In this document: piece after piece, positions 35-21,162 of the stretch | Layout: the number at the start of each line of letters is the position of its first letter | How positions within the stretch are numbered: the stretch's first letter is position 1 | Virus record (IMG/VR): IMGVR_UViG_3300005910_000042 | Span: 1 to 21,162 of that record | Reading direction: 5' to 3' (one strand) | Origin: a virus | Length of the DNA: 21,162 nucleotides | Translations under genes and position numbers: made by a program | The notes under the pieces: generated by a model | Told to the model about the DNA's origin: nothing | Seen by the model: only the letters and a program-made list of their open reading frames with translations | Database searches by the model: none

Positions 35-234
35 GTTTCCCCCTTCAATGTTAATCCGGCTTGTTGCATTTCATCCAGTGTCCATTCCTGGTTCCCGATG
101 ATTCCATTCTCAAGCCGATAGAGTGGTTCCACAAATCCCGTGTTGCGCTTTGGCTTGTGAACACGATGCACGATATACGTTTTTCCCTTTGTGCTTTCGA
201 GGGTGTCACCCGTTTTTAATTCTGGCAATGTCAT
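31..234 (-). CDS. Hypothetical protein, 67 aa
   Basis: This is a small soluble protein beginning MTLPELKTGD. I start it at the ATG at 234 rather than at the longer frame start at 276. An AAGGAG ribosome binding site lies at the proper distance before 234, and the extra residues would only be a read-through of the preceding endonuclease gene. It overlaps that gene's stop in an ATGA junction and overlaps the next gene in the same way. The first half (KTGDTLESTKGKTYIVHRV) resembles a small beta-barrel or SH3-like fold with basic residues, but I recognise no family. The 3' part of the upstream GIY-YIG gene supplies its ribosome binding site. Confidence 0.7.
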   Translation of the reverse strand: MTLPELKTGDTLESTKGKTYIVHRVHKPKRNTGFVEPLYRLENGIIGNQEWTLDEMQQAGLTLKGET

Positions 235-983
235 ATTGCGTCTCCTTCTCTTTTTAAACTGTATTGATTTCTCCATGACTTTTTGCTGGCTTCACTAATT
301 CTTTTGCAATGTTCTTTGGAAAGCGGAACATTCTTTTTCTCTTGATTCATTTTTGCCCTTTCTTCTGCTGAACGATGTTTACCGTTTATTCTTCCAATGC
401 TTATATTCTTGCGGTGTTCCGCTGAAAGCTTTTTACCCTTTAAAGAAGTCGTTCTGTTTCTGCGTCGCTCCGCTCTATTTGACTGAACTATCCGCATTTT
501 TTCTTTTGTTGCTTCTGAGTGCCGTTTCCCTAAATTAGCCAAACTTAGCTTTTTTCTCATTTCTTGTGATCGCACCTTTCCTTTGTTGGCAATTCCTACT
601 TTTTTATTCCATTTAGAAGAATGCCGTTTTCCTTTACGTGCCAGACTCATTTTTCTTCGAGATTCTTCCGACATTTTTCTCCCCGACATAACTCCATCTC
701 CACCAATAGTTGTGTTCACTAAATCTATTCCCTTTTCTCTTAAAAACTTAATTTGATCTTTTTCTTCTTGGCATCCGTCTCCGTCTACCTCTCTTATAAG
801 TGCGATGTTTGGTAAAAACCCTCTTGCTTGCATAGAACGAATCCATCTGCTTTTGTGGGTGTTTTCGCCGCTTTTTGCGCTATAAATATGAGAGTACATC
901 CTGTCTCGCAATGGCTTAACAGTTTTGCCTACATAACGAATGAGCCAGTTTTCGTCGCGGAGAACATACAGCTTGGTTTTCAT
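231..983 (-). CDS. GIY-YIG homing endonuclease with NUMOD3 repeats
   Basis: A free-standing homing-type endonuclease of 250 aa. The GIY-YIG nuclease domain covers roughly residues 3-100: the LYV strand, then RYVGKT at about 16-21, a conserved Arg near 26-28, an acidic EEKD segment in the middle, and the LVNTTIGGDG end motif near 88-97. The rest is a lysine-rich array of NUMOD3-type DNA-binding modules (SEESRRKMSLARKGKRHS and variants), typical of phage homing endonucleases. I start at the ATG at 983 because GGAG lies 7 nt upstream; the frame could extend to 1007 without a good site. It sits between the SleB hydrolase and a 67-aa gene, and its tail holds the next gene's ribosome binding site. 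It is clearly paralogous to the endonuclease at 18521-19462. Being free-standing, its cleavage site is probably in a related phage lacking the insertion. Confidence 0.9.
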   Translation of the reverse strand: MKTKLYVLRDENWLIRYVGKTVKPLRDRMYSHIYSAKSGENTHKSRWIRSMQARGFLPNIALIREVDGDGCQEEKDQIKFLREKGIDLVNTTIGGDGVMSGRKMSEESRRKMSLARKGKRHSSKWNKKVGIANKGKVRSQEMRKKLSLANLGKRHSEATKEKMRIVQSNRAERRRNRTTSLKGKKLSAEHRKNISIGRINGKHRSAEERAKMNQEKKNVPLSKEHCKRISEASKKSWRNQYSLKREGDAI

Positions 984-1016
984 AATACAACTCCATACAG
1001 TTGCCATAGATTGAGA

Positions 1017-8146: not shown

Positions 8147-8370
8147 AAAACATTCTTATCATTCAGCCACGTCATTGCAAAGAGCCGTCTAACATAAAGA
8201 CTATCAAAACCGAAACCACGAGCGTTTCGTTTCTATGTTATAAAAGCGGTTTCCGGTTTGTAGAGCTGCGAGAGTGGGACTTAATCTTGATTGATGGGTG
8301 CTTGGATAATCTGGATTCGCGTTTTCTTAAAGTCATCGAAACACATTCTAAACGCTTCTTAATATTATGA
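8143..8370 (+). CDS. Hypothetical protein directly before large terminase, 75 aa
   Basis: The ATG at 8143 overlaps the previous stop as ATGA, and its own stop overlaps the terminase ATG as ATGA, so all three are probably translationally coupled; neither junction has a clear ribosome binding site. The sequence MKNILIIQP ... ELREWDLILIDGCLDNLD alternates strand-like and acidic segments and recalls a small alpha/beta or receiver-like fold. That is a loose impression. No function can be assigned. Confidence 0.55.
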   Translation: MKNILIIQPRHCKEPSNIKTIKTETTSVSFLCYKSGFRFVELREWDLILIDGCLDNLDSRFLKVIETHSKRFLIL

Positions 8371-10238
8371 AACCCGACAATCCCCCAAAATCCTTTTTTT
8401 CTCAAGCACTCGCTGGGAACGAACAGACGGACTTTAATATGTTCGAGCCGTTCGATTGCCCCCCGCGCCCACAATGGCTGATAGACACAGCAAAAAAAGC
8501 CGAAATAGAGATTAACCCTAACGGCAATGAATTTCAAATCGGCATGTTGATGGACACACAGCAGACGCCCGGCGCGGCGATGAGTGTTGCTGGCACGCAA
8601 TCAGGTAAATCAGTGGAAGCCTTGGTTGAAGCCGTTATCATGGCGTCAGGGCAGGTGCCAGTTTCCATGCGCTTTGAAAAAGGTGTTGACACAGGTGTTC
8701 CGCGAGTAGTCAATGAAGAAAACATTGCGCGGTTTGGGTTGAAGGAAGACGGTACGTGCGGAAATATTATCGGTGTGGGAATATACCCCAAGGAAAAAAT
8801 ACCGAAGGCAGGTTCGCAGATATGGATTTGTACGTATAAAGAGGCGAAGGAAAAAATGTGGCGCAAAAAGTTCGCCAAAATAATTCCTCAATATTTTTTG
8901 GACGCTAAACGAGGGGTAAATGGATTTTCAGAATTAAAGCAGACATATTTTTTCAATAACGGGAACACCATATCATACATTACGTATGAGCAGGACTATC
9001 ACAGGGTTGAGGCTGAAAAGGCGTGGCTCATTATTCTTGACGAGGAACCGCCGGACAGAAGGTTTTGGATTAGTGCTTTGGAACACGCCGTATATCTGCG
9101 AGCTTCCTTCACGCCTATAAATGGTCTGAGCTGGTTATACCACGACGTTTACCTTCCCATTATTTCTGGACAAAACAAATACTGCAAGATTTACTACTGC
9201 TCGCAATACGATTCGCCATATCATAACCGCAAAAAAGTAGATCAGAAGATCAAGACGTACAAGCCCTACGAATTGAAAGCGAGAGTGTGGGGCCAGTTTA
9301 GTGACATGCAAGGGAAGCCGTATTATACATTTGATGTGACTCAAAAGAATTTGCGCACTTACGTTCCGCGCCACTCGTATGCGAAAATTTGGCCGACACA
9401 GAAACCAGAGACCGCCAGGGAAGCACTTAAGATTAAGATGCTGTTTGAGAACGTGGAAGAGCGCGGCGATGATGTGTGGGAGATATACGAGGAATACAGG
9501 GAGACCGATTCCTACTGGCTGGCGGCTGATATTGCTGAAGGTAACGAAAACCCCGAAGCCGCCGCCGATGCCAGTGTCGCGTATATTCGCCGGTTGCCAC
9601 GCGAGGGAGAAGTTGATCCGGTGTTGGTGTCCGCGCTCTATTCACGTATGCGTAATGTAGAATTTGCATGGATGTGCCTATATGCCTCAATTTACTACAA
9701 CCTATGCCTGATGGCTCCTGAAGCGCGTGGCGAAGATGCGGCAGTATTCCTAACGACAATTATAAATTACCCCTTCATTTATCAGCACGTTGTTACCAGC
9801 GATAAAACCAGACGGTTGAAAGAGGTCAACGGGTTTGATACCACCGTGGGAAACCGTAAGGTAATCTTCGACTTGGCTGGCACATGGATTTACGACAGGC
9901 CGGATAATCCGAAGATTTATCATTATGCGTTACTAAAGGAATATTCCGAATGTATTGTAGGGAAGAGCGGTCGGCCTGACCACGGCGAGAACGGGCATAC
10001 AGATTGTCTTGTGTCGTGGGGTATCAGTCAGTTCGTTTATACATTCGCCAAAAACCAAATAAGAAATAACCGCAGTCGGAAGTTTTCGCTATCCAAAGAC
10101 CCCGACCCCATGACGTTCCCAAATGTTTTTTTGGCGGGGAGACATATTCGCGAAACCAGAAAAATACTTGGCTCTCAACGCGGGCTTGATTTAAGATCGC
10201 AATATGATAAACGATATGTTTCCACAAATCAAGAATAA
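8367..10238 (+). CDS. terL: Terminase large subunit (ATPase-nuclease)
   Basis: The packaging motor, 623 aa, which would pump DNA into the prohead and cut it. The N-terminal ATPase has a Walker A variant, GTQSGKS (about 76-82), and a Walker B, WLIILDEEPP (about 220-229), with the catalytic Glu next to the Asp. The C-terminal RNase H-like nuclease shows AADIAEG (Asp about 388), a middle acidic APEARGE (about 450-456) and HTDCLVSW (Asp about 546). The segment GFDTTVGNRK fits the family's conserved region before the last motif. The length is on the long side for the family. The start overlaps the preceding gene (ATGA) with no Shine-Dalgarno, so expression depends on coupling. A GIY-YIG endonuclease gene follows 18 nt after the stop. 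Confidence 0.93.
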   Translation: MKPDNPPKSFFSQALAGNEQTDFNMFEPFDCPPRPQWLIDTAKKAEIEINPNGNEFQIGMLMDTQQTPGAAMSVAGTQSGKSVEALVEAVIMASGQVPVSMRFEKGVDTGVPRVVNEENIARFGLKEDGTCGNIIGVGIYPKEKIPKAGSQIWICTYKEAKEKMWRKKFAKIIPQYFLDAKRGVNGFSELKQTYFFNNGNTISYITYEQDYHRVEAEKAWLIILDEEPPDRRFWISALEHAVYLRASFTPINGLSWLYHDVYLPIISGQNKYCKIYYCSQYDSPYHNRKKVDQKIKTYKPYELKARVWGQFSDMQGKPYYTFDVTQKNLRTYVPRHSYAKIWPTQKPETAREALKIKMLFENVEERGDDVWEIYEEYRETDSYWLAADIAEGNENPEAAADASVAYIRRLPREGEVDPVLVSALYSRMRNVEFAWMCLYASIYYNLCLMAPEARGEDAAVFLTTIINYPFIYQHVVTSDKTRRLKEVNGFDTTVGNRKVIFDLAGTWIYDRPDNPKIYHYALLKEYSECIVGKSGRPDHGENGHTDCLVSWGISQFVYTFAKNQIRNNRSRKFSLSKDPDPMTFPNVFLAGRHIRETRKILGSQRGLDLRSQYDKRYVSTNQE

Positions 10239-10256: not shown

Positions 10257-10862
10257 ATGAAAACTAAAAAAATTGGCATATACGGTTTTCGTAATATTAT
10301 AAATGGGAAATGGTATATTGGGCAGAGTATTGATATTAGGAAAAGAAGGGTTTTGCATCTTTGGGCATTGCGATCACGCAAACATCGCAACAAACATTTT
10401 CAAGATGCTTTCTTAAAATATGGTGAATCCAATTTTGAATTTCATATACTTGAGGAAACAAGTGAAAATATGTTGGATGTTCGAGAACGTGCTTGGATAA
10501 CATATTATAAAAGCATGGATAGAAAACATGGATACAATATGACCAGTGGCGGAAATAAGAATAAACGTTACTCCAAAGAAATTTGTCTTAAAATATCAAA
10601 AGCAAGTAAAAAGAAAACTTTTTCACTTGAAACGCGTCGTAAAATGAGCGAGTCTGCAAAAATACGAAACGCCAGAGATGGTAATTTTTTTGCCGGGAAA
10701 CCAGGATGGAATAAAGGCAAACATCATTCCGAAGAAACTAAACTCAAAATTCGAGAGTCCAATAAGGGAAAACATGTTTTTACTAAGGAAAAAATAATTG
10801 AGATGTCTAAAAGACGTAAAAATTGGAAACGAACACCAAAGGGAATGTTCATAAAACATTAA
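10257..10862 (+). CDS. GIY-YIG homing endonuclease between terminase and portal
   Basis: A 201-aa free-standing endonuclease. The domain is canonical: GIYGFRNIINGKWYIGQS at about 7-24, IRKRRVLH with the likely catalytic Arg at about 27-34, an ERAW acidic motif near residue 78, and YNMTSGGN near 93-100. NUMOD3-like modules (SLETRRKMSESA, SEETKLKIRES) follow. It belongs to a different GIY-YIG subgroup from the two at 231-983 and 18521-19462. The gene is visibly more AT-rich than the terminase and portal genes, which suggests recent acquisition. The leader has no strong ribosome binding site. It separates two genes that are usually neighbours. Confidence 0.92.
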   Translation: MKTKKIGIYGFRNIINGKWYIGQSIDIRKRRVLHLWALRSRKHRNKHFQDAFLKYGESNFEFHILEETSENMLDVRERAWITYYKSMDRKHGYNMTSGGNKNKRYSKEICLKISKASKKKTFSLETRRKMSESAKIRNARDGNFFAGKPGWNKGKHHSEETKLKIRESNKGKHVFTKEKIIEMSKRRKNWKRTPKGMFIKH

Positions 10863-10875
10863 GAAAGGTGCAATC

Positions 10876-12714
10876 ATGGCTGACAAAAACAATAATACTT
10901 ATGCCCCTTATACGCCCTCCGAAGATTCAGACAAGAAGCTGAGAAAATACCTCGCGCTGTTCCGGCTGGCATGGAAAGAGGCGCGTCCGTATTTTGATTT
11001 GGCAAACGAGGACGTGCGAATGTTCAATCAGGACGTGAACCCTGACAGACCTACGTTGTCGGATGTTACGCTCGCGCAGGCGCGGTTGTTCGTTGACCAA
11101 GCGTTGCCGCCGCTTATGAGCCGGTTGTTTGATGCGGATAACCCGTTTGATTTAATACCAACGGACGCCAAGATTGAGTATGAAACAGCCCGCAAGATCA
11201 GAGACCTTGTTCTCTACAACATGCGGACGCACATGCAGATTGAGCGGAACGGATACCTGACGTTACGTGAAGCGGTGAAACTCGGCAAGGGATATGGTAT
11301 AATTGAGCCGCGTGTTATTACTCCACCAATGTCCGAAGAGCAGATTGTCTTGGCTGGCGGCAAAGAAGTAAAAAATCGCATAATGGGGATTGGCAAGAGC
11401 GAACTGGTGCCGGGATATACCTGTCTGCCGTTTGGAACAGTAATCCCAACGCCTGACGGCGCTACGCCCGATGACGTTAGTTGCGTGTTCGTCCTGAGGA
11501 TGTTTCAGGAGGAACCGTTCCGAAAAATGTTCGATAAAAAATTGAATCCCGACACTCCGTTTGAAGGGCCGGTTGAGAAGATCATAGACCGCGCAAGGTC
11601 AAAGATATTCAACGGTTATTTAGCTACACCGCGTCAGATTGCGACTCAGATTGCCAGCTTGCAGCGTTCACCAGCGCAAGCGATGAATGAATCAGGTTAC
11701 GATACCCCTGTTATCATCCCTGTGTTGCAGTGCTTCTCAAGGGATGAGCACGCATGGTATGCTTGTGACCAGTTTGAGATTTACAGCGCCAAGGCCAAAT
11801 ACCAGACATTACGTAATCCGGTGGTGGCGGCAACATTCGATCCTGACGGTGTTGAGTGGTTCACGCCGGGAATCATTCGCCCACGGCGCAGGATGATTAT
11901 GGGGTCTGAAGATTTCTTCAACGCCATCATGGATATGATTTCCATGTCATTGCATCCGCACCAGATTGTCAATCGTGACGCGTTGTTAAGTGAAGACCAG
12001 AAGACCGACATGCAACCTTACGGGCGCACGTATATCAGCGGTTCAGCAAAAGCCGCAGACGTGATTTCATGGGCGCAGTTGCCGCAATTACCGGCGTATG
12101 TGTTTGAGGCTGGCAACAAACTGGAAGAGCATGATACGGCCAGTGTCGGGCAACCGAAGTCATTGCAGGGGCAGGGAACGCCAGGGCTGGTGCGCGGTGG
12201 GTCGGGCGCGATGGAATCGCTGTTGCAGTCAACGTCAGGGAGAGAGAAGCTGACGGCAAGACATGTTGAGAACGGGTGGTTTTCTGCGGTAATCGAAAAT
12301 ACCTTGGTATTGAGCCAGATGTTAGCCAAAGACAAGCAATACCTGCCGTCTATTTCTTATGTACCGGAGTCAAAGAAAAACAAATTTGATTTTTCTGAGA
12401 TCAGTCGTGCAGATATTCGCAGAGTATATACGGTGCAGTTAAGCTTTCAAGATAAGCTTCGTAACGAGCTTAGTGAAATGACTCGTAAATCTATGATATT
12501 CGACCGCGCCATTCAACACGAGGGAGTAAACAGGGATGAACTAATGAATTGGTTTATTGGGAATGATAAGGAATCGAAGCGATTATTCAGCGGAGTTGAC
12601 CGTGAAGAAAATATGCGTATATTGCAAAGCCTTGGTAAGGGTGGTGGAGAGGCACCAAAGGAAACTCCTATCACGGGTGGTAAAGGACTTACTGGTGGAG
12701 GGCTTCAAGTTTAA
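10876..12714 (+). CDS. Portal (head-tail connector) protein
   Basis: A 612-aa protein placed just after the large terminase, where portals lie. The pattern fits podovirus-type portals or connectors: an N-terminal helical segment (KKLRKYLALFRLAWKEARPY), a conserved ARLFVDQALPPLMSRLF region, an RRMIMGSEDFFNAIMDMISMSLHPHQ helix, an internal glycine-rich loop (GQGTPGLVRGGSGAMESL), and a polar glycine-rich tail. It would form the dodecameric ring through which DNA enters. The ATG at 10876 has an AAAGG site. The TAA overlaps the next ATG as TAATG. The assignment is by position, length and motif pattern, not by alignment. Confidence 0.82.
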   Translation: MADKNNNTYAPYTPSEDSDKKLRKYLALFRLAWKEARPYFDLANEDVRMFNQDVNPDRPTLSDVTLAQARLFVDQALPPLMSRLFDADNPFDLIPTDAKIEYETARKIRDLVLYNMRTHMQIERNGYLTLREAVKLGKGYGIIEPRVITPPMSEEQIVLAGGKEVKNRIMGIGKSELVPGYTCLPFGTVIPTPDGATPDDVSCVFVLRMFQEEPFRKMFDKKLNPDTPFEGPVEKIIDRARSKIFNGYLATPRQIATQIASLQRSPAQAMNESGYDTPVIIPVLQCFSRDEHAWYACDQFEIYSAKAKYQTLRNPVVAATFDPDGVEWFTPGIIRPRRRMIMGSEDFFNAIMDMISMSLHPHQIVNRDALLSEDQKTDMQPYGRTYISGSAKAADVISWAQLPQLPAYVFEAGNKLEEHDTASVGQPKSLQGQGTPGLVRGGSGAMESLLQSTSGREKLTARHVENGWFSAVIENTLVLSQMLAKDKQYLPSISYVPESKKNKFDFSEISRADIRRVYTVQLSFQDKLRNELSEMTRKSMIFDRAIQHEGVNRDELMNWFIGNDKESKRLFSGVDREENMRILQSLGKGGGEAPKETPITGGKGLTGGGLQV

Positions 12715-13496
12715 TGGAAAGCAACCCAAAACTAAAGCGATGTTCAAAGTGCGGAGAAACAAAACCGTTTTCGGAATTTTTCAAAAACAAATCAAAGAAA
12801 GAAGGAATAAATAGTTGGTGCAAGGTTTGTAGTATTAAAGACACTAATCATCGGCAGAAGGTTCATCGGAAAAGATGTAATGAATATTCTAAAAAATGGC
12901 AGAAAAACAATTACGAAAAACACAAAAAAAGCAAGGCGAAATGTGTATCTAAAAACTCGTCAAAATATAAAGAAACCTCCAAAAGATGGAAGCAAAATAA
13001 TTTTGGAAGAATGATGGAAAAGAAAAAAGTTTGGGAATTAAATCATCCTGGTTATCATTCGGAATATACACGAAATAATTTAGAAAGAGCCAGGCTGTCA
13101 CATCGTGAATATGACAAAAAAAGACGTTTAACCCCAAGGGGGAGGTTAGATGATAGCATGAGTTCTCAAATTTATCTTGCCATACGTGGTAATAAAGCAG
13201 GTCGTTCGTGGGAGTTGTTGGTGGGTTACACGGTAGGAGAATTGCACGCTCATCTTGAATCAAAATTTACTGATGGAATGTCATGGGATAATTACGGCAA
13301 GGATGGGTGGGCAATTGATCACATCGTACCCAAAGCAAGATTTCATTATGAGCATCCAGAAGATCAAGAATTTCGTGTGTGTTGGGCATTAGCTAACTTG
13401 CAACCTTTATGGGCAAAAGACAATTGCCAAAAGAACGATAGAACGATGGAAGAATGGGAACAATACAAAACGCAACGTGTGGCTCTTGGAGCGTAA
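12714..13496 (+). CDS. HNH endonuclease with N-terminal zinc ribbon
   Basis: A 260-aa free-standing HNH nuclease. The N-terminus has a zinc ribbon (RCSKCG at about 9-14, WCKVCS at about 35-40), then a long Lys-rich helical linker (about 45-140). The C-terminal core contains WAIDHIVPKARF and RVCWALANLQPLWAKDNCQKND, matching phage HNH proteins of this class. The ATG overlaps the portal's TAA (TAATG), so translation is coupled. It is AT-rich in the first two thirds, unlike the portal. It probably acts as a homing endonuclease, here inserted between the portal and the next virion gene. Confidence 0.9.
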   Translation: MESNPKLKRCSKCGETKPFSEFFKNKSKKEGINSWCKVCSIKDTNHRQKVHRKRCNEYSKKWQKNNYEKHKKSKAKCVSKNSSKYKETSKRWKQNNFGRMMEKKKVWELNHPGYHSEYTRNNLERARLSHREYDKKRRLTPRGRLDDSMSSQIYLAIRGNKAGRSWELLVGYTVGELHAHLESKFTDGMSWDNYGKDGWAIDHIVPKARFHYEHPEDQEFRVCWALANLQPLWAKDNCQKNDRTMEEWEQYKTQRVALGA

Positions 13497-14805: not shown

Positions 14806-16053
14806 ATGTCAAACACAGCAAGTATTCACGGCGCGTATCTAACCTATGATGCGACTGCCGGACAGACCGCCCTTAATACTGGCGGGATTTTCAGGGTGCG
14901 AGATATTGACCCTGATATTCCGTTCAAACGTCCGTATAGTGCAATGTTTTACAAGTTTCTGACCGCCGTTCCGCATGGCCGCACGGCCACGCAGGATAAG
15001 GTTCAGTGGGGTGAGCAGGAACGTATCCTCAACTATCTGACCGTTCAAGCTACAGCGGCCAGCGGTGCTACGTCCATTGATGTGACTAACGCCTATAATG
15101 CGGTTCCTGGCGATAAGTTCATCAACTGGCGCACGGGTGAAATCATCCGTATTCTGGCTCTTACCGACGCTAATACCATTACTACTCCAGCAACAACTGG
15201 TTATGGTCGTGGGTTTGTTGGAACGACTGCCGCTGCTATGCGTATTGGCGACCGTCTGTACAAAATGGGTAATGCCCTGACCGAAAAAGGACGTACTCCG
15301 CAAACCCTGTCCAAGATGCCGACTGACGCATATAACTATTGCTCATTCTACATCAAGGCAGTGGATGTTACTCGTCAACAGGAAAATTCCGTCATGCTCG
15401 GCAACTTCGGCAAGATGTCTGAGAAGATGGCCAACACCCTGCATAACTTCCGCGAGGAAATCAACATGGACTTGTGGAAAGGCAAACGCGCATTGATCGT
15501 AGTTGCTTCAGGCGCGGCCCATGACGAAGGTGGCGGCAACCTGTATCAGATGAACGGGTTTGACGAGCAGGTGAAAACGCATGCGTGGGATTTGGACGAC
15601 ATCGGACAGATGACATGGGAGCTTTGGAATGAAATCCTCAGCCCCGTGTTTGACAACGACTCCGGTGACAGGTTCATGTATTGCGGTAAGAACGTCATGG
15701 CGAGTATCCGCAGTACATCTCGCGGCAACGTGGTTCCTACCGTTTACCCTTCGATCCTTGAAGGCGTGAACATTACGGCGATCACGGTTGATGGCGGCAC
15801 GGTTCACTTGGTTCCTGACCCCGATGGTCTGCCTCCGGGTTCTGCCCGTCTGGTGCATCCGTCGTTTGTCGAGTACCGTGAACGCGACGGCTACGGCGAA
15901 CAGTGGATCATGAACACCAAGCTCCCGACGCAGGTACAGGAAGAAGTCAACACGCTGGTAGCCGGCGGAACACTGGTGCTCAAGAATGAGGAAACGATGC
16001 TCAAGTTGGACAATCTGGGTGGCCCGTTCACTCGCGGCATCAAGGATGACTAA
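14806..16053 (+). CDS. Major capsid protein
   Basis: A 415-aa protein after the scaffold-like gene, with a TAGGAG site 8 nt before the ATG. The features agree with an HK97-fold coat protein: an N-terminal arm, a beta-rich inserted region (about 70-135, TVQATAASGATSIDVTNAY...), a middle helix block (MLGNFGKMSEKMANTLHNFREEINMDLWKGK) like a spine helix, and a C-terminal domain ending in an LPTQVQEEVNTLVAGGTLVLKNEE stretch. The pattern reminds me of SU10-like/DUF5309 capsid proteins, which is an impression only. A strong hairpin follows at 16070-16099. It is the shell-forming protein and probably the most highly expressed gene here. Confidence 0.85.
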   Translation: MSNTASIHGAYLTYDATAGQTALNTGGIFRVRDIDPDIPFKRPYSAMFYKFLTAVPHGRTATQDKVQWGEQERILNYLTVQATAASGATSIDVTNAYNAVPGDKFINWRTGEIIRILALTDANTITTPATTGYGRGFVGTTAAAMRIGDRLYKMGNALTEKGRTPQTLSKMPTDAYNYCSFYIKAVDVTRQQENSVMLGNFGKMSEKMANTLHNFREEINMDLWKGKRALIVVASGAAHDEGGGNLYQMNGFDEQVKTHAWDLDDIGQMTWELWNEILSPVFDNDSGDRFMYCGKNVMASIRSTSRGNVVPTVYPSILEGVNITAITVDGGTVHLVPDPDGLPPGSARLVHPSFVEYRERDGYGEQWIMNTKLPTQVQEEVNTLVAGGTLVLKNEETMLKLDNLGGPFTRGIKDD

Positions 16054-16126: not shown

Positions 16127-16573
16127 ATGACGAAACAGACCGAAAGGAACGGAGAACAAGTCATGGAACAGAAGCCGGAAGTTCCGGTTTCCCAGAACTC
16201 CCCGAAACAGGTCGTGTTCCGAAGCAAGGATGCAGCGTTGGTGCTTGCGTTCAAAGCCGGGTATATGGATAAGTCTCATGGTCAATCGAATTATGTACCC
16301 AGCGAAATAGAGTCGTTCGAGGAGTTTTTTCTACGTATAGACGACATTCCTGCGAATAAGAAACGTATCGAGAGGTTACGAACACATGGGTCGCACGGTA
16401 TTTCCTTCAGGGAAGTGCCGGACTTCAATGACCGCGAGGACTTGCCACCGATAGACGAGTTGGAAGTCATGTCAATCAAGGAATTGAAAGACTTGTGCAG
16501 CAAGCGGAAAGTGGAAGTAAGCGAAGATGCCAGCAAGGAAGCAATCATGTTGGCGTTAATCAAGAAACAGTAA
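16127..16573 (+). CDS. Hypothetical virion or head-completion protein, 148 aa
   Basis: It follows the major capsid gene. The C-terminal part (MSIKELKDLCSKRKVEVSEDASKEAIMLALIKKQ) is like the small HeH/SAP-type helical motif found at the ends of phage head proteins; the N-terminal half is charged and probably extended. AAGGA lies 7 nt before the ATG at 16127. A second ATG at 16163, with GGAG at 8 nt, could start a 136-aa form. The function is unknown; position suggests a head-decoration or head-tail joining role. Confidence 0.65.
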   Translation: MTKQTERNGEQVMEQKPEVPVSQNSPKQVVFRSKDAALVLAFKAGYMDKSHGQSNYVPSEIESFEEFFLRIDDIPANKKRIERLRTHGSHGISFREVPDFNDREDLPPIDELEVMSIKELKDLCSKRKVEVSEDASKEAIMLALIKKQ

Positions 16574-17363: not shown

Positions 17364-17398
17364 CCGGTTGCCGTGGCGTAAAAACTACGGCCAACCGG
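17364..17398 (+). terminator. Hairpin between virion genes (terminator-like, no U-run)
   Basis: CCGGTTG (17364-17370) pairs with CAACCGG (17392-17398), and CCGT with ACGG (17371-17374 with 17387-17390), leaving a 12-nt loop and one bulged C. It ends 6 nt before the ribosome binding site of the next gene. It has a similar build to the hairpin after the capsid gene. Confidence 0.5.
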
Positions 17399-17418
17399 AA
17401 GGACAAGGAGATATGATG

Positions 17419-18432
17419 ATGAATGGAATTGTAAAAAAAGTTGGATTGTTTTTGGCTACGTTGGCTGTGGCGTGGAGTTGTCAAGCACTTGATTATAGCC
17501 AACATTTCGGGAGACCGCCACGTATGTATCGTGTTTCTCTCGGTGTTGGTGGTGCTCCGTCTGCGGCTGATATGAATACGGTTTACATTCGGCCTGGTGA
17601 TATGGTGGCAAACGCCGATGATGATGCGTTGTTTATCATGTCAACTACGAATGTTTATACCAAGATAGAGGCGGATGGAACTGTAACAATAGTGTCAATG
17701 GATATTAGTGACCGCATGGACATCGGTGGATGGGGTTATGCAGGTGAACACGCTCCGTTGGCTGATACAGACGAGACTCATACTATGGCTGGTTTCGGCC
17801 AGTTTAACGAGGTTTCTACTGTGGTTTCGGCTGGCAAGGTCATGGCGGCGAAATATTCCAGGCTTCTGATAAGTGAAAGCCAGACCAATTCGTCTACCTT
17901 TATTGGAACTGAGAGTCAACTAAGACTTCGTGGAGCCAACATCGGCGAGGGAGTTCATGCTGGACTCTGGGCTTATGCTGAGCAATCCGGGGTTTCGACT
18001 CAAAGCGATGCTGGCACGTTTGACGCCATAACCGCAACTGTTGAATCTGAAGCAACTTATACTATTGGTGCTACTGAGCAGATTTCAGGCATTACGCTTG
18101 ATTCGTCTATCAATACAGGTGCAACGATAAATGCAAGTGCTAACTTCTCTGCTGTGTATATCAAGTCGAATGGCCTTGACTGGTTCAATGGTCTTTATAT
18201 TACCGGTTGCGACAACGCCATATTGTTTGATGGCGGGGCTACGATAGACCAAAGTGATACTAACACGCTGACGATTACGGAGGCGAATGTTGCTGTAGTT
18301 GGTGACTTTGCGGCCAGTACGATTGCGGCTGATAATGGATATACTGGAATTATTACTAATGGCCCTACAGGTTATACTAATGTGACGACATTTGTTAATG
18401 GCATTTGTACATCCAATGTATTCAATCCGTAA
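17419..18432 (+). CDS. Virion-type protein with N-terminal signal peptide
   Basis: A protein of 337 aa (or 338 from the ATG at 17416). AAGGAG lies 8 nt before 17419. The N-terminus is a Sec-type signal peptide: MNGIVKK, a hydrophobic core VGLFLATLAVAWS (8-20), and a likely cleavage near C-Q-A|L (residue 23). The preceding Cys21 does not fit a proper lipobox. The rest is polar and beta-rich with repeated Thr/Asn/Ala patterns, suggesting a fibrous beta-solenoid-like virion protein. The C-terminus (YTGIITNGPTGYTNVTTFVNGICTSNVF) resembles a small beta motif common at the ends of phage structural proteins. It lies between a virion gene and a GIY-YIG gene. A signal peptide on a virion component is unusual. 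Confidence 0.7.
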   Translation: MNGIVKKVGLFLATLAVAWSCQALDYSQHFGRPPRMYRVSLGVGGAPSAADMNTVYIRPGDMVANADDDALFIMSTTNVYTKIEADGTVTIVSMDISDRMDIGGWGYAGEHAPLADTDETHTMAGFGQFNEVSTVVSAGKVMAAKYSRLLISESQTNSSTFIGTESQLRLRGANIGEGVHAGLWAYAEQSGVSTQSDAGTFDAITATVESEATYTIGATEQISGITLDSSINTGATINASANFSAVYIKSNGLDWFNGLYITGCDNAILFDGGATIDQSDTNTLTITEANVAVVGDFAASTIAADNGYTGIITNGPTGYTNVTTFVNGICTSNVFNP

Positions 18433-18452
18433 CTAATCGCGATGAGAGAATT

Positions 18453-18492
18453 GGGCGGGTACAGTTGAATTAAAACCTTACCTTGCCCGCCC
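18453..18492 (+). terminator. GC-rich stem-loop before the GIY-YIG gene
   Basis: GGGCGGG (18453-18459) pairs with CCCGCCC (18486-18492) across a 26-nt AT-rich loop. GTTCTTTCC follows, a weak U-tract, so a terminator after the preceding gene is plausible. It ends 16 nt before the AAGGAGGG ribosome binding site of the endonuclease. Confidence 0.5.
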
Positions 18493-18520
18493 GTTCTTTC
18501 CTGATGAAGGAGGGATGCTC

Positions 18521-19462
18521 ATGGCGATGATGACAAAGATATACGCCCTCTGCTCACCTACTGCTGAAATCCGATACATCGGCAAGACCGTTAATTCTCT
18601 TGTAAGAAGGTTGGGCAGTCATCTTTATGTTGCTCGTCGTGGCGACCAAAATCATCTTTATAATTGGTTGCGTTCCGTATTATCCACTGGTCATCTTCCC
18701 CTGATACAACTAATTGGCGAAGTCATAGGTAATGGAAACAATGAAGAACGTGCCTGGATTATTTATGGCAAGGGTGAGGGATGGCGACTTGTAAATTCTA
18801 CTTCAGGTGGAGAAGGGATATTAAATCCTTCGGAAGAAACACGTCGTAAATTACATGATTCTCATGTAGGCAAGCCCAATGGCTGCTTAGGAACTCATCG
18901 GTCAGAAGAGTCTCGGCTTAAAATGTCATTGGCTAAAAAAGGGAAACATTTCACCAAAGAACACCGCCGTAAAATAGGATTAGGAAATAAAGGAAAAATA
19001 ATTTCAATAGATCAAAGACGTAAAATATCAAAAGCGAATAGAAATCGTATTGTTTCTATAGAAACACGTCAAAAATTAAGCAAACTCACAAAAACACGAT
19101 TAGCTCAAAATGGACATCCCCTTTCAGGAAAACATCATTCTGAAGAATCAAAACGAAGGATGTCGGAATCTCATAAAGGTGAAAAGCATTTTAATTATGG
19201 CAAACATCTTTCCGAAGAAACCAGACGAAAAATAGGGTTGGCAAACTTGGGAAGACATCAGTCAGCAGAAACTCGTCAAAAAATAAGTGAAGCGACCTTA
19301 AGGCAATTTGCTGCAAAGGGACATCCAAGACAAGGTTGTCATGCCTCGGACGAATTAAAATGCAGAATGAGTGAAACAACCAAAAAGAGAATGACTCCCG
19401 AATATCGTAAAAAAATAAGCAATAGTCTTTTACGTTATTTTCAATCTAAGAGGGTGGTATGA
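18521..19462 (+). CDS. GIY-YIG homing endonuclease with long NUMOD3 array
   Basis: A 313-aa endonuclease. The GIY-YIG domain covers roughly residues 5-105: IYALCSP, EIRYIGKTV, LVRRLGSHLY with the likely catalytic Arg, an acidic NNEERAW and LVNSTSGGEG. About 200 residues of repeated lysine-rich NUMOD3 modules (SEETRRKL, SEESRLKMSLAKKGK, and so on) follow. It is closely similar in layout and motifs to the minus-strand protein at 231-983 (shared RY-V/I-GKTV, LP.I.LI.EV.G.G, LVN.T.GG.G). I start at the ATG at 18521, 6 nt from AAGGAGGG; the frame also has ATG at 18515 and 18530. Its last codons hold the ribosome binding site of the next gene, and its TGA overlaps that gene's ATG (ATGA). Confidence 0.92.
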   Translation: MAMMTKIYALCSPTAEIRYIGKTVNSLVRRLGSHLYVARRGDQNHLYNWLRSVLSTGHLPLIQLIGEVIGNGNNEERAWIIYGKGEGWRLVNSTSGGEGILNPSEETRRKLHDSHVGKPNGCLGTHRSEESRLKMSLAKKGKHFTKEHRRKIGLGNKGKIISIDQRRKISKANRNRIVSIETRQKLSKLTKTRLAQNGHPLSGKHHSEESKRRMSESHKGEKHFNYGKHLSEETRRKIGLANLGRHQSAETRQKISEATLRQFAAKGHPRQGCHASDELKCRMSETTKKRMTPEYRKKISNSLLRYFQSKRVV

Positions 19463-21162
19463 AAAAAACATTATGTTGGTTTTTATTTTCTATATTTTCT
19501 TTTGCGCTTTCTCTTTTTGCGGCTTCTCCTTCTATTACATTTAGCGTAGACACAGAAATTCCCAGTGTTTTCGAGGTGCAAACCTATGCAGGTAATACGC
19601 CTACCATTACAGTAAATATCCAATCGGGCGGAAGCAATTTTACTGGACTTGGCGCGGGGTGGTCAGCGGAATTTAATTATTCTAAATCGGATTATGCTAC
19701 TGCCTTGAAAACAATTACCGGAACCGTGAACGCGGCAACTGGGGTGGTTACTTTTAATTGTGCCACGAACGCATTTCCAGCTTCAGGCGATTATTTTGGC
19801 GAGATATTTTTGCAAAATGGTTCCACAAAAATAACAAGCGGGCAGGGTTTGGTAAGGGTAAAGAAATCCCCGAGTTCAGGATCAACTACTATTTGGGATT
19901 TGAATAATCGCGTGAACTGGGATATTTTGACTTCGATTGGAAATTTGCCGTGGAGCGATTTTGACACTAACACGCTCCAAAGCCAAATCACCGCCAACCT
20001 CGCATCCGCCAACGCAACCAGTGTGGTATTCCAGGCGAAGTTTGACGCACAGGCGAACACTAACGCTGACTATGAATCCCGTATTGCAGCCGAGGAAACC
20101 CTGTCAACAGCCCAGGCCAATACCAATGCGGCATTATTGGCGGCAATAGTGGCTAACGGGACCAGCGACGTATCGCTTGTAACCTATAACGCCCATGTAG
20201 CCGCACAAGCCGCGACCAATACCGAGGTCTATACTTTCCGGACGAATCAGGTGGCCACGAACGCGGCATTGCTGGCGGCGATTACCGCGAATGGCACAAG
20301 CGATGTTTCACTGGTAACGTATAACGCTCATGTGACGGCGCAGGCTACTACAAATACGGAGTTTGAATCTCGGATTGGGTCAAATGAAACCTTCCGAATT
20401 ACGACACAGCCAGCGACTAATGCCTCTTTGTTGGCACAAGCCGCCTATGGGATTACTGCTTATGGGTGGGGCGATTGGTCTGGACAAGGATTTATAACTT
20501 CTGCCACGAATATCTTTACTTCCCTCTATGTTGCTGATCGCTCTCAGTTGGACGCGAATATATCAGGACTGACGCAAGGAGTTTATACCGGCTCGTTGAC
20601 TACGGTGGCTTACACTGGCGCTACTGCGCTGGTGTCTGGAAAGACTTACGTTTACGGCTACAGCAAGGTCGGGGCAAGTGGAACTTCCACGCTTTCGATT
20701 GCTGGGTTTACGCTTGGGCCGCATACTGCTGTCAACAATTACAGCAACTATTTCTCCTTTGAAGATACTGGAAGTAATTTAGTGATAAAACTCGATGGCT
20801 CTGGTTTGTCGCTATGCAATGCGTCGAATATATACGTGAGGGCTTCCACGGGGGGCACTATCAATGCGGCTGGCGACATGAATGTAGGAGGAGTTATACG
20901 AGCTTATGGCGCGATAATGACCAACCCTGCGGTGCATATTGCTGACACGGCTAACCCTCACGGCGTTACGGCGTCACAGGCCGGGGCGGTGGCGACAAAC
21001 GATGCCGATTATCTTGTCGCTCTGACCAACGCCCGTCCGTGGGATGAACCTAATTATAACACGATTACAAACCCACCGACTATCCCCACTACAAATGGGT
21101 TTATAAAAACTGGCGAGGCAGGTGCATGGACGAACCTATCCGAGTATAATGACGACCTTGCG
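19459..21162 (+). CDS. Tail fibre or receptor-binding protein with signal peptide (partial, open at right edge)
   Basis: The frame is open from 19459 to the window edge, 568 codons. The ATG overlaps the endonuclease TGA, and the AGAGGG site lies inside the endonuclease gene. The N-terminus is a clear Sec signal peptide: MKKTLCWFLFSIFSFALSLF with cleavage near FA|AS (residues 20-23). Next comes an Ig-like region (about 24-150; ITGTVNAATGVVTF and ASGDYFGEIFLQNG) like the N-terminal fold of baseplate upper proteins. A helical repeat region follows at about 190-310, with a 35-aa unit duplicated at 20122-20226 and 20257-20361. Then come beta-rich segments and ANPHGVTASQAGAV near 495-508, a tail-fibre hallmark. 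It probably binds the host surface or forms a fibre. The C-terminus is not in the window. Confidence 0.8.
   Translation, partial: MKKTLCWFLFSIFSFALSLFAASPSITFSVDTEIPSVFEVQTYAGNTPTITVNIQSGGSNFTGLGAGWSAEFNYSKSDYATALKTITGTVNAATGVVTFNCATNAFPASGDYFGEIFLQNGSTKITSGQGLVRVKKSPSSGSTTIWDLNNRVNWDILTSIGNLPWSDFDTNTLQSQITANLASANATSVVFQAKFDAQANTNADYESRIAAEETLSTAQANTNAALLAAIVANGTSDVSLVTYNAHVAAQAATNTEVYTFRTNQVATNAALLAAITANGTSDVSLVTYNAHVTAQATTNTEFESRIGSNETFRITTQPATNASLLAQAAYGITAYGWGDWSGQGFITSATNIFTSLYVADRSQLDANISGLTQGVYTGSLTTVAYTGATALVSGKTYVYGYSKVGASGTSTLSIAGFTLGPHTAVNNYSNYFSFEDTGSNLVIKLDGSGLSLCNASNIYVRASTGGTINAAGDMNVGGVIRAYGAIMTNPAVHIADTANPHGVTASQAGAVATNDADYLVALTNARPWDEPNYNTITNPPTIPTTNGFIKTGEAGAWTNLSEYNDDLA
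20122..20361 (+). repeat. Duplicated 35-aa unit in the fibre gene (period 135 nt)
   Basis: The unit TNAALLAAI(V/T)ANGTSDVSLV...NTE occurs at 20122-20226 and 20257-20361. The protein sequence is nearly identical while many third codon positions differ. Shorter similar segments flank it: YESRIAAEE before, and FESRIGSNE with ATNASLLAQ after. The full period is about 45 residues. It is probably a trimeric coiled-coil or helical shaft region. Confidence 0.75.

Follow-up and report, generated by a model that had tools for sequence, protein, structure and literature searches.

Predicted Sec signal peptides on a run of fibre-type genes in an SU10-like phage and on an analogous module of Cellulophaga phages

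Main finding

The DNA analysed here, called the window, is a 21,162-nt linear fragment in IMG/VR (IMGVR_UViG_3300005910_000042) from a tailed phage, in which a run of fibre-type genes with predicted Sec signal peptides begins. Two of them, gene 1 (17419) and gene 2 (19459), start in the window, and genes 3 and 4 follow beyond its end. We consider it fairly probable (roughly 0.6) that the four genes form an exported host-contact module of fibres and lectin-type tips, made as Sec pre-proteins and joined to particles. The signals themselves, their clustering, their recurrence, an attachment-type domain and a link to virion proteins of cultured phages annotated by mass spectrometry (MS) are direct observations, from which we infer that the proteins pass through Sec, are cleaved and are added to particles outside the cytoplasm. 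Tail fibres are generally thought to fold and join tails inside the cytoplasm, and the premise of a preliminary description of this DNA, that virion proteins usually assemble there, is true for most phages.

Four signal-peptide genes in one block

The window also lies within another IMG/VR record, 43,292 bases long (21,161/21,162 bases the same), which continues for 6.2 kb on the upstream side and for 15.9 kb on the downstream side. Positions above 21162 carry the window numbering on into this 43-kb record. The features of the run are as follows.

17419..18432, + strand: fibre-type gene 1, signal-peptide protein of 337 aa; Shine-Dalgarno motif AAGGAG, signal scorer passed, 10 viral relatives of the C-terminal domain
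17419..17487, + strand: predicted Sec signal peptide of gene 1, MNGIVKKVGLFLATLAVAWSCQA, with cleavage predicted by the scorer before LDY
17665..18348, + strand: conserved viral-only domain of gene 1 (GGWGYTGEH ... GLWAYAEQSG ... GTFDAI), from alignment A1
19459..21162, + strand: fibre-type gene 2, signal-peptide protein; 567 aa in the window, running off its end, and 1008 aa when complete in the 43-kb record
19459..19521, + strand: predicted Sec signal peptide of gene 2, MKKTLCWFLFSIFSFALSLFA, with cleavage predicted by the scorer before ASP
19522..19899, + strand: predicted BppU-like baseplate-attachment domain immediately past the gene 2 signal (sub-threshold Pfam BppU_N; AlphaFold2 and Foldseek)
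Start 22487, outside the window: gene 3, predicted signal MKRISIIIVAVCGLLAMAGA followed by TD; LamG (PF13385), 7.9e-17, 62.2 bits, above cutoff
Start 23244, outside the window: gene 4, predicted signal MKHLLTIILALTCATLHA followed by QT; Lcl_C (PF07603), 4.1e-13, 50.1 bits, above cutoff

Signals were called with a rule that scores n-region charge, an uncharged hydrophobic core and small residues at -3 and -1, and that all of eight Escherichia coli controls pass. Genes 1 and 2 both pass, each with a basic n-region, a charge-free h-region and small -3/-1 residues, and the Sec signals first described at 17419 and 19459 are upheld, with good sites before LDY and ASP. Random N-termini drawn from the proteins' own mature composition match the observed score in 0.16% (gene 1) and 0.10% (gene 2) of cases. 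Shuffled versions of the first 40 residues of these two genes, on the other hand, pass the rule in 5-6%; one signal call alone is therefore weak, and it is the genomic pattern that serves as evidence.

The 43-kb record holds approximately 53 open reading frames (ORFs) no shorter than 60 aa. Four of them pass the rule (17419, 19459, 22487 and 23244, gene 3 being read from its true start at 22487) and the other ∼49 fail. The four follow one another, interrupted only by a homing endonuclease gene that has been inserted after gene 1, and the chance of four among ∼40 genes forming one block is ∼4e-4. The preliminary description had reported two adjacent genes. Both signals are there, but the run goes on outside the window, and a GIY-YIG/NUMOD3 endonuclease (18515-19462) separates genes 1 and 2.

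The gene 1 ORF extends from 17368 to 18432 and holds consecutive ATGs at 17413, 17416 and 17419, of which 17419 is the best start because AAGGAG ends 7-8 nt before it. Gene 1 was also considered as a lipoprotein cut between AWS and C; tryptophan at -2 and alanine at -3 fit a lipobox poorly, and signal peptidase I is preferred.

A predicted attachment domain and an SU10-type fibre position

Gene 2 carries an NPHGVTA-type fibre motif, and the segment that follows its signal resembles the N-terminal domain of BppU. The Pfam profile BppU_N (PF10651) matches it at 19.6 bits (E 7.9e-4), below the gathering cutoff of 23.1. We modelled the domain with AlphaFold2 from its single sequence (predicted local distance difference test [pLDDT] 58, predicted template modelling score 0.54) and compared it with the PDB using Foldseek. 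The best 11 matches are all phage baseplate entries (E 3.6e-7 to 1.9e-4), namely, TP901-1 BppU (4v96, 3uh8) and the baseplates of 80alpha and NF5, with 3uh8 at E 1.2e-6 and template modelling scores of 0.68/0.72. The domain is thus predicted to have the BppU N-domain fold. Since sequence profile and fold comparison agree, we regard it as a probable virion-attachment domain that would be the mature N-terminus of the gene 2 protein. In the Lactococcus phage TP901-1, the BppU N-terminal domain of the same predicted fold serves baseplate attachment, although the gene 2 sequence match to it is under the Pfam cutoff and the genes of the window phage are podovirus-like. To our knowledge, TP901-1 BppU has no signal peptide.

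By its gene content the window phage is an SU10-like tailed phage, with capsid and adaptor of SU10 type in SU10 gene order. The landmarks within the window are listed below.

8367..10238, + strand: large terminase (tblastn against annotated terminases, 5e-11)
10876..12714, + strand: putative portal protein (weak SU10_portal match, 7e-4, 18.5 bits against a cutoff of 30; SU10-like gene order)
14806..16053, + strand: major capsid protein, SU10 type (Pfam SU10_MCP, 1.2e-15)

Minus-strand replication genes are followed by the terminase (8367), the portal (10876), a scaffold-type gene (13957), the capsid gene (14806) and the genes at 16127 and 16604. Then come the four signal-peptide genes, two more genes, the SU10_adaptor gene (25918; match 2.7e-6, above cutoff), a gene for a 1142-aa tail protein (27560) and more large proteins. 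SU10 itself (Kuravirus, NC_027395) has a capsid and an adaptor of the same types, and its fibres gp12/gp13 sit between the capsid and adaptor genes, which is the site of the four signal-peptide genes. The original assignment of genes 1 and 2 as fibre-type is upheld. In PHROG, the gene 3 LamG protein has matches among baseplate and virion families. Unlike the window genes, the SU10 fibres gp12, gp13, gp17 and gp18 have no signal peptide.

An analogous module in cultured Cellulophaga phages

Cellulophaga phages appear, by analogy, to do likewise with a module of their own. Signal peptides are present in 11/11 proteins of the fibre/pectate-lyase module of phi10:1 (gp091-094), phi19:1 (gp101-104) and phi18:3 (gp085-087), and the records of all 11 state "annotation based on experimental MS/MS proteomics analysis" (MS/MS, tandem mass spectrometry). 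The signals of phi10:1 gp091-gp094 are MKKILLLLLFISASLSA, MRKLLLISLFLTSVLSFG, MKKTIYILSILLLTISGVSA and MKHTISIVLFFILSLGLNA, followed by QT, QN, QT and QT, respectively. The other MS-marked virion proteins of phi10:1, phi19:1 and phi18:1 (portal, capsid, connectors, tape measure and others) carry a signal in 0/23 cases, a few of the 23 having an MS mark that is only partly shown and was taken as the same phrase. The module is also found in phi19:3, phi46:3 and Nekkels_1.

The signal and the next ∼40 to 60 residues are common to fibres with differing C-termini (phi10:1 gp094, phi46:3 gp081/gp082 and phi18:3 gp087). A second shared N-terminal module links phi10:1 gp093 with phi18:3 gp086, and phi10:1 gp092 retains its signal though the remaining N-terminal part diverges from its homologues. 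On this sequence evidence, the proteins are laid out as fibres usually are, with a constant N-terminal module and exchangeable C-termini, and with an export signal added at the start. Like the window run, the Cellulophaga module (Assiduviridae, Pachyviridae) consists of three to four consecutive fibre-type genes that all have a Sec signal, while core virion proteins have none. The two modules have no detectable sequence relation; they differ in their cleavage sites, which lie between A and Q (Bacteroidota-type) in Cellulophaga phages and are mostly non-Q in the window phage, and the Cellulophaga module includes pectate lyases.

These comparisons bear on the possibility that the proteins are secreted and do not belong to the virion, and instead coat the infected cell, to mask receptors or exclude superinfection, or cut exopolysaccharide to release progeny. 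Signal peptides combined with lectin/lyase-type domains fit secretion, and phage exclusion proteins are known to be exported. Against this stand the annotation of the Cellulophaga counterparts from virion MS/MS, the BppU-like attachment domain of gene 2, the location in a structural operon at the fibre site, and an N-terminal module common to proteins whose C-termini are exchanged, as is usual in fibres. We consider purely secreted proteins unlikely. The preliminary description had offered three options: export to the cell surface or to virions after lysis, an uncleaved anchor, and a host group in which the segment has another role. The first is the best supported of the three, given the BppU-like domain and the Cellulophaga virion MS/MS; the last found no support.

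Relatives on other viral contigs

The gene 1 domain (∼220 aa) is common to ten proteins of other viral contigs at 48-66% identity (alignment A1, 11 viral sequences). These relatives range from 370 to >1000 aa and differ in their N-terminal halves. An export segment nevertheless starts 10/10 of them, as a classical signal in eight and with a long n-region in two (L003 and L005). On several contigs the gene 1 relative lies directly 3' of the capsid gene. In L003 (9119-9400) and L005 (8753-8980), the hydrophobic core is preceded by a 60- to 80-residue cytoplasmic, coiled-coil-like region and a DxDGDGQxG loop (EF-hand/dockerin-like).

The AlphaFold2 model of the gene 1 conserved domain (A1) has a pLDDT of 49, and the domain had no PDB match and only weak PHROG matches. 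No relative of this domain turned up in a pattern-seeded scan covering 84,980 genomes of cellular species, and a cellular scan with the 1142-aa tail protein likewise gave none; neither scan pointed to a host. Genes 1 and 2 had no match by tblastn against 50,697 phage records; viral scans using the capsid, the gene 2 N-domain and the tail protein recovered nothing beyond the 43-kb record already described, and tblastn with the terminase gave only distant matches with mixed hosts.

Contigs with the short gene 2 motif include L014/L015, with six signal-peptide ORFs among structural genes, and L017, with three. Four of the six are consecutive in L014 (1504-11247) and L015, which represent one phage lineage, in structural-type surroundings. 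Anchor-like N-terminal hydrophobic segments were observed in genes soon after the capsid gene in L018 (7524-8597), L019 (7804-8680) and L021 (6993-8351). The structural genes of Flavobacterium phage hattifnatt9-1, a cultured relative of the L010 capsid, have no signal peptides.

Cleavage sites and the Q-rule

Signal peptides cut by signal peptidase I in Bacteroidetes are mostly followed by glutamine (Q), at a mean of 71% across species (PMC5837995). The substrates of this Q-rule in that paper are cellular proteins, and the paper is silent on phages; relatives and the Cellulophaga fibres likewise have Q behind the predicted cleavage site. In Bacteroidota-type phage loci, Q occupies +1 of an allowed site in 32/41 signal-peptide ORFs, against an expectation of 1.9; this set takes in some non-structural ORFs and is in part circular, since L006-L012 were called Bacteroidota partly by their signals, while its Cellulophaga part has a known host. 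In the other contigs the count is 2/17 (1.3 expected). The phage signals follow the habit of the host signal peptidase, and real processing is therefore the best explanation; the Q-rule fit of the Bacteroidota-type loci argues for real cleavage. Within the run, gene 4 alone has Q at +1. Genes 1 to 3 do not follow the Q-rule, and the host of the window phage is therefore probably not a member of the Bacteroidota.

The same evidence bears on an uncleaved anchor that would tether fibres at the inner membrane, where tails would be completed with N-termini intact. The cytoplasmic regions and DxDGDGQxG-type loops ahead of the hydrophobic segment in L003 and L005 speak for such an anchor, as do the anchor-like segments of L018, L021 and L019 in genes after the capsid gene. 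Most members, however, have good cleavage sites, and Q at +1 in 32/41 ORFs with likely or known Bacteroidota hosts is the mark of a signal peptidase I substrate. As a general account the anchor is improbable: it suits the window and its Bacteroidota-type relatives, with their good sites, less well, but this earlier suggestion fits L003, L005, L018 and L021.

The N-termini might also be hydrophobic by chance, or for assembly, with no role in export, as the 5-6% pass rate of single shuffled N-termini would allow. Four passing genes in a row (∼4e-4), 10/10 relatives, 11/11 against 0/23 proteins in Cellulophaga phages and the Q-rule already contradict this explanation, which we regard as very improbable.

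Proposed route of assembly

In the favoured reading, that of an exported host-contact module, the fibre proteins would be made late in infection with the signal that is seen in their sequence. Sec would transport the pre-proteins over the inner membrane and signal peptidase I would cut them, a step backed by the Q-rule in relatives. The exported proteins would fold as oligomers outside the cytoplasm, and capsids and core tail, all signal-free, would be built inside it. At the envelope, or once the membrane is breached, the exported proteins would attach to the tail via the domain next to the signal, which in gene 2 is BppU-like; the domain is observed, and the timing and place of joining are conjectural. 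Exported fibres might act on the cell surface before lysis.

It is probable that particle assembly ends outside the cytoplasm in some phages. A broader proposal, which we advance tentatively and at slightly below even odds, is that several unrelated tailed-phage lineages build in two compartments. Head and core tail would arise in the cytoplasm; a fibre/enzyme module, exported by Sec and processed by signal peptidase, would be built outside and join them at the envelope or at lysis.

Several points, besides the partial circularity of the Q-rule count, weigh against the favoured reading. Signals were called by our own rule and not by SignalP. The virion of the window phage is known from genes alone. 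The MS/MS basis for the Cellulophaga proteins consists of depositors' GenBank notes, and exported proteins may copurify with particles. L016, which shares the short gene 2 motif, has no signal-peptide ORF. The fibres of phi18:1, phi38:1, B40-8 and SU10 have no signal, and with so many signal-free fibres export is not a general need. A need for disulfides as a reason for export is not evident either, as cysteines are few in the mature window proteins.

The absence of a signal peptide has been used as support for the phage origin of variable proteins (PMC6199706), and rumen Bacteroides phages were reported to have one to two signal peptides, with no tie to fibres (PMC5723332). In the open-licence literature, we found no description of signal peptides on virion proteins or of exported fibre modules. 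The assembly route is possibly a general one. If the reading is true, models of tail assembly, host-range evolution and superinfection change, and a missing signal peptide becomes an unsafe test for a virion protein. Signal sequences would also be expected to differ with the host, in line with the Q-rule pattern.

Endonuclease genes and further observations

The gene inserted in the run is described by the following row.

18515..19462, + strand: free-standing GIY-YIG/NUMOD3 homing endonuclease between genes 1 and 2 (Pfam NUMOD3, 1.7e-25; PHROG homing endonuclease)

The stop codon of this ORF and the gene 2 start codon share the sequence ATGA, an overlap that suggests translational coupling. 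Further free-standing endonuclease-like ORFs lie at 231-1007 (- strand), 10257-10862, 12714-13496 and 26796-27563 (43-kb record). The structural operon is interrupted by GIY-YIG/NUMOD3-type ORFs plus one HNH-like ORF.

Farther downstream in the 43-kb record (31444-32544), a 366-aa protein has an N-terminal hydrophobic segment, MSIATTSLKYGWKVLALLTIGTGSIFVADN, that fails the signal rule; the protein at L005:15243 starts alike. In L012 (2172-3054), two similar tandem Q-rule signal-peptide proteins directly follow an HK97-type capsid gene. Both are small and beta-rich and could be exported capsid decorations. Small non-structural signal-peptide proteins, several of them Q-rule, are present in phi10:1 (L037:23531-23845) and phi19:3 (L039:5645-6725).

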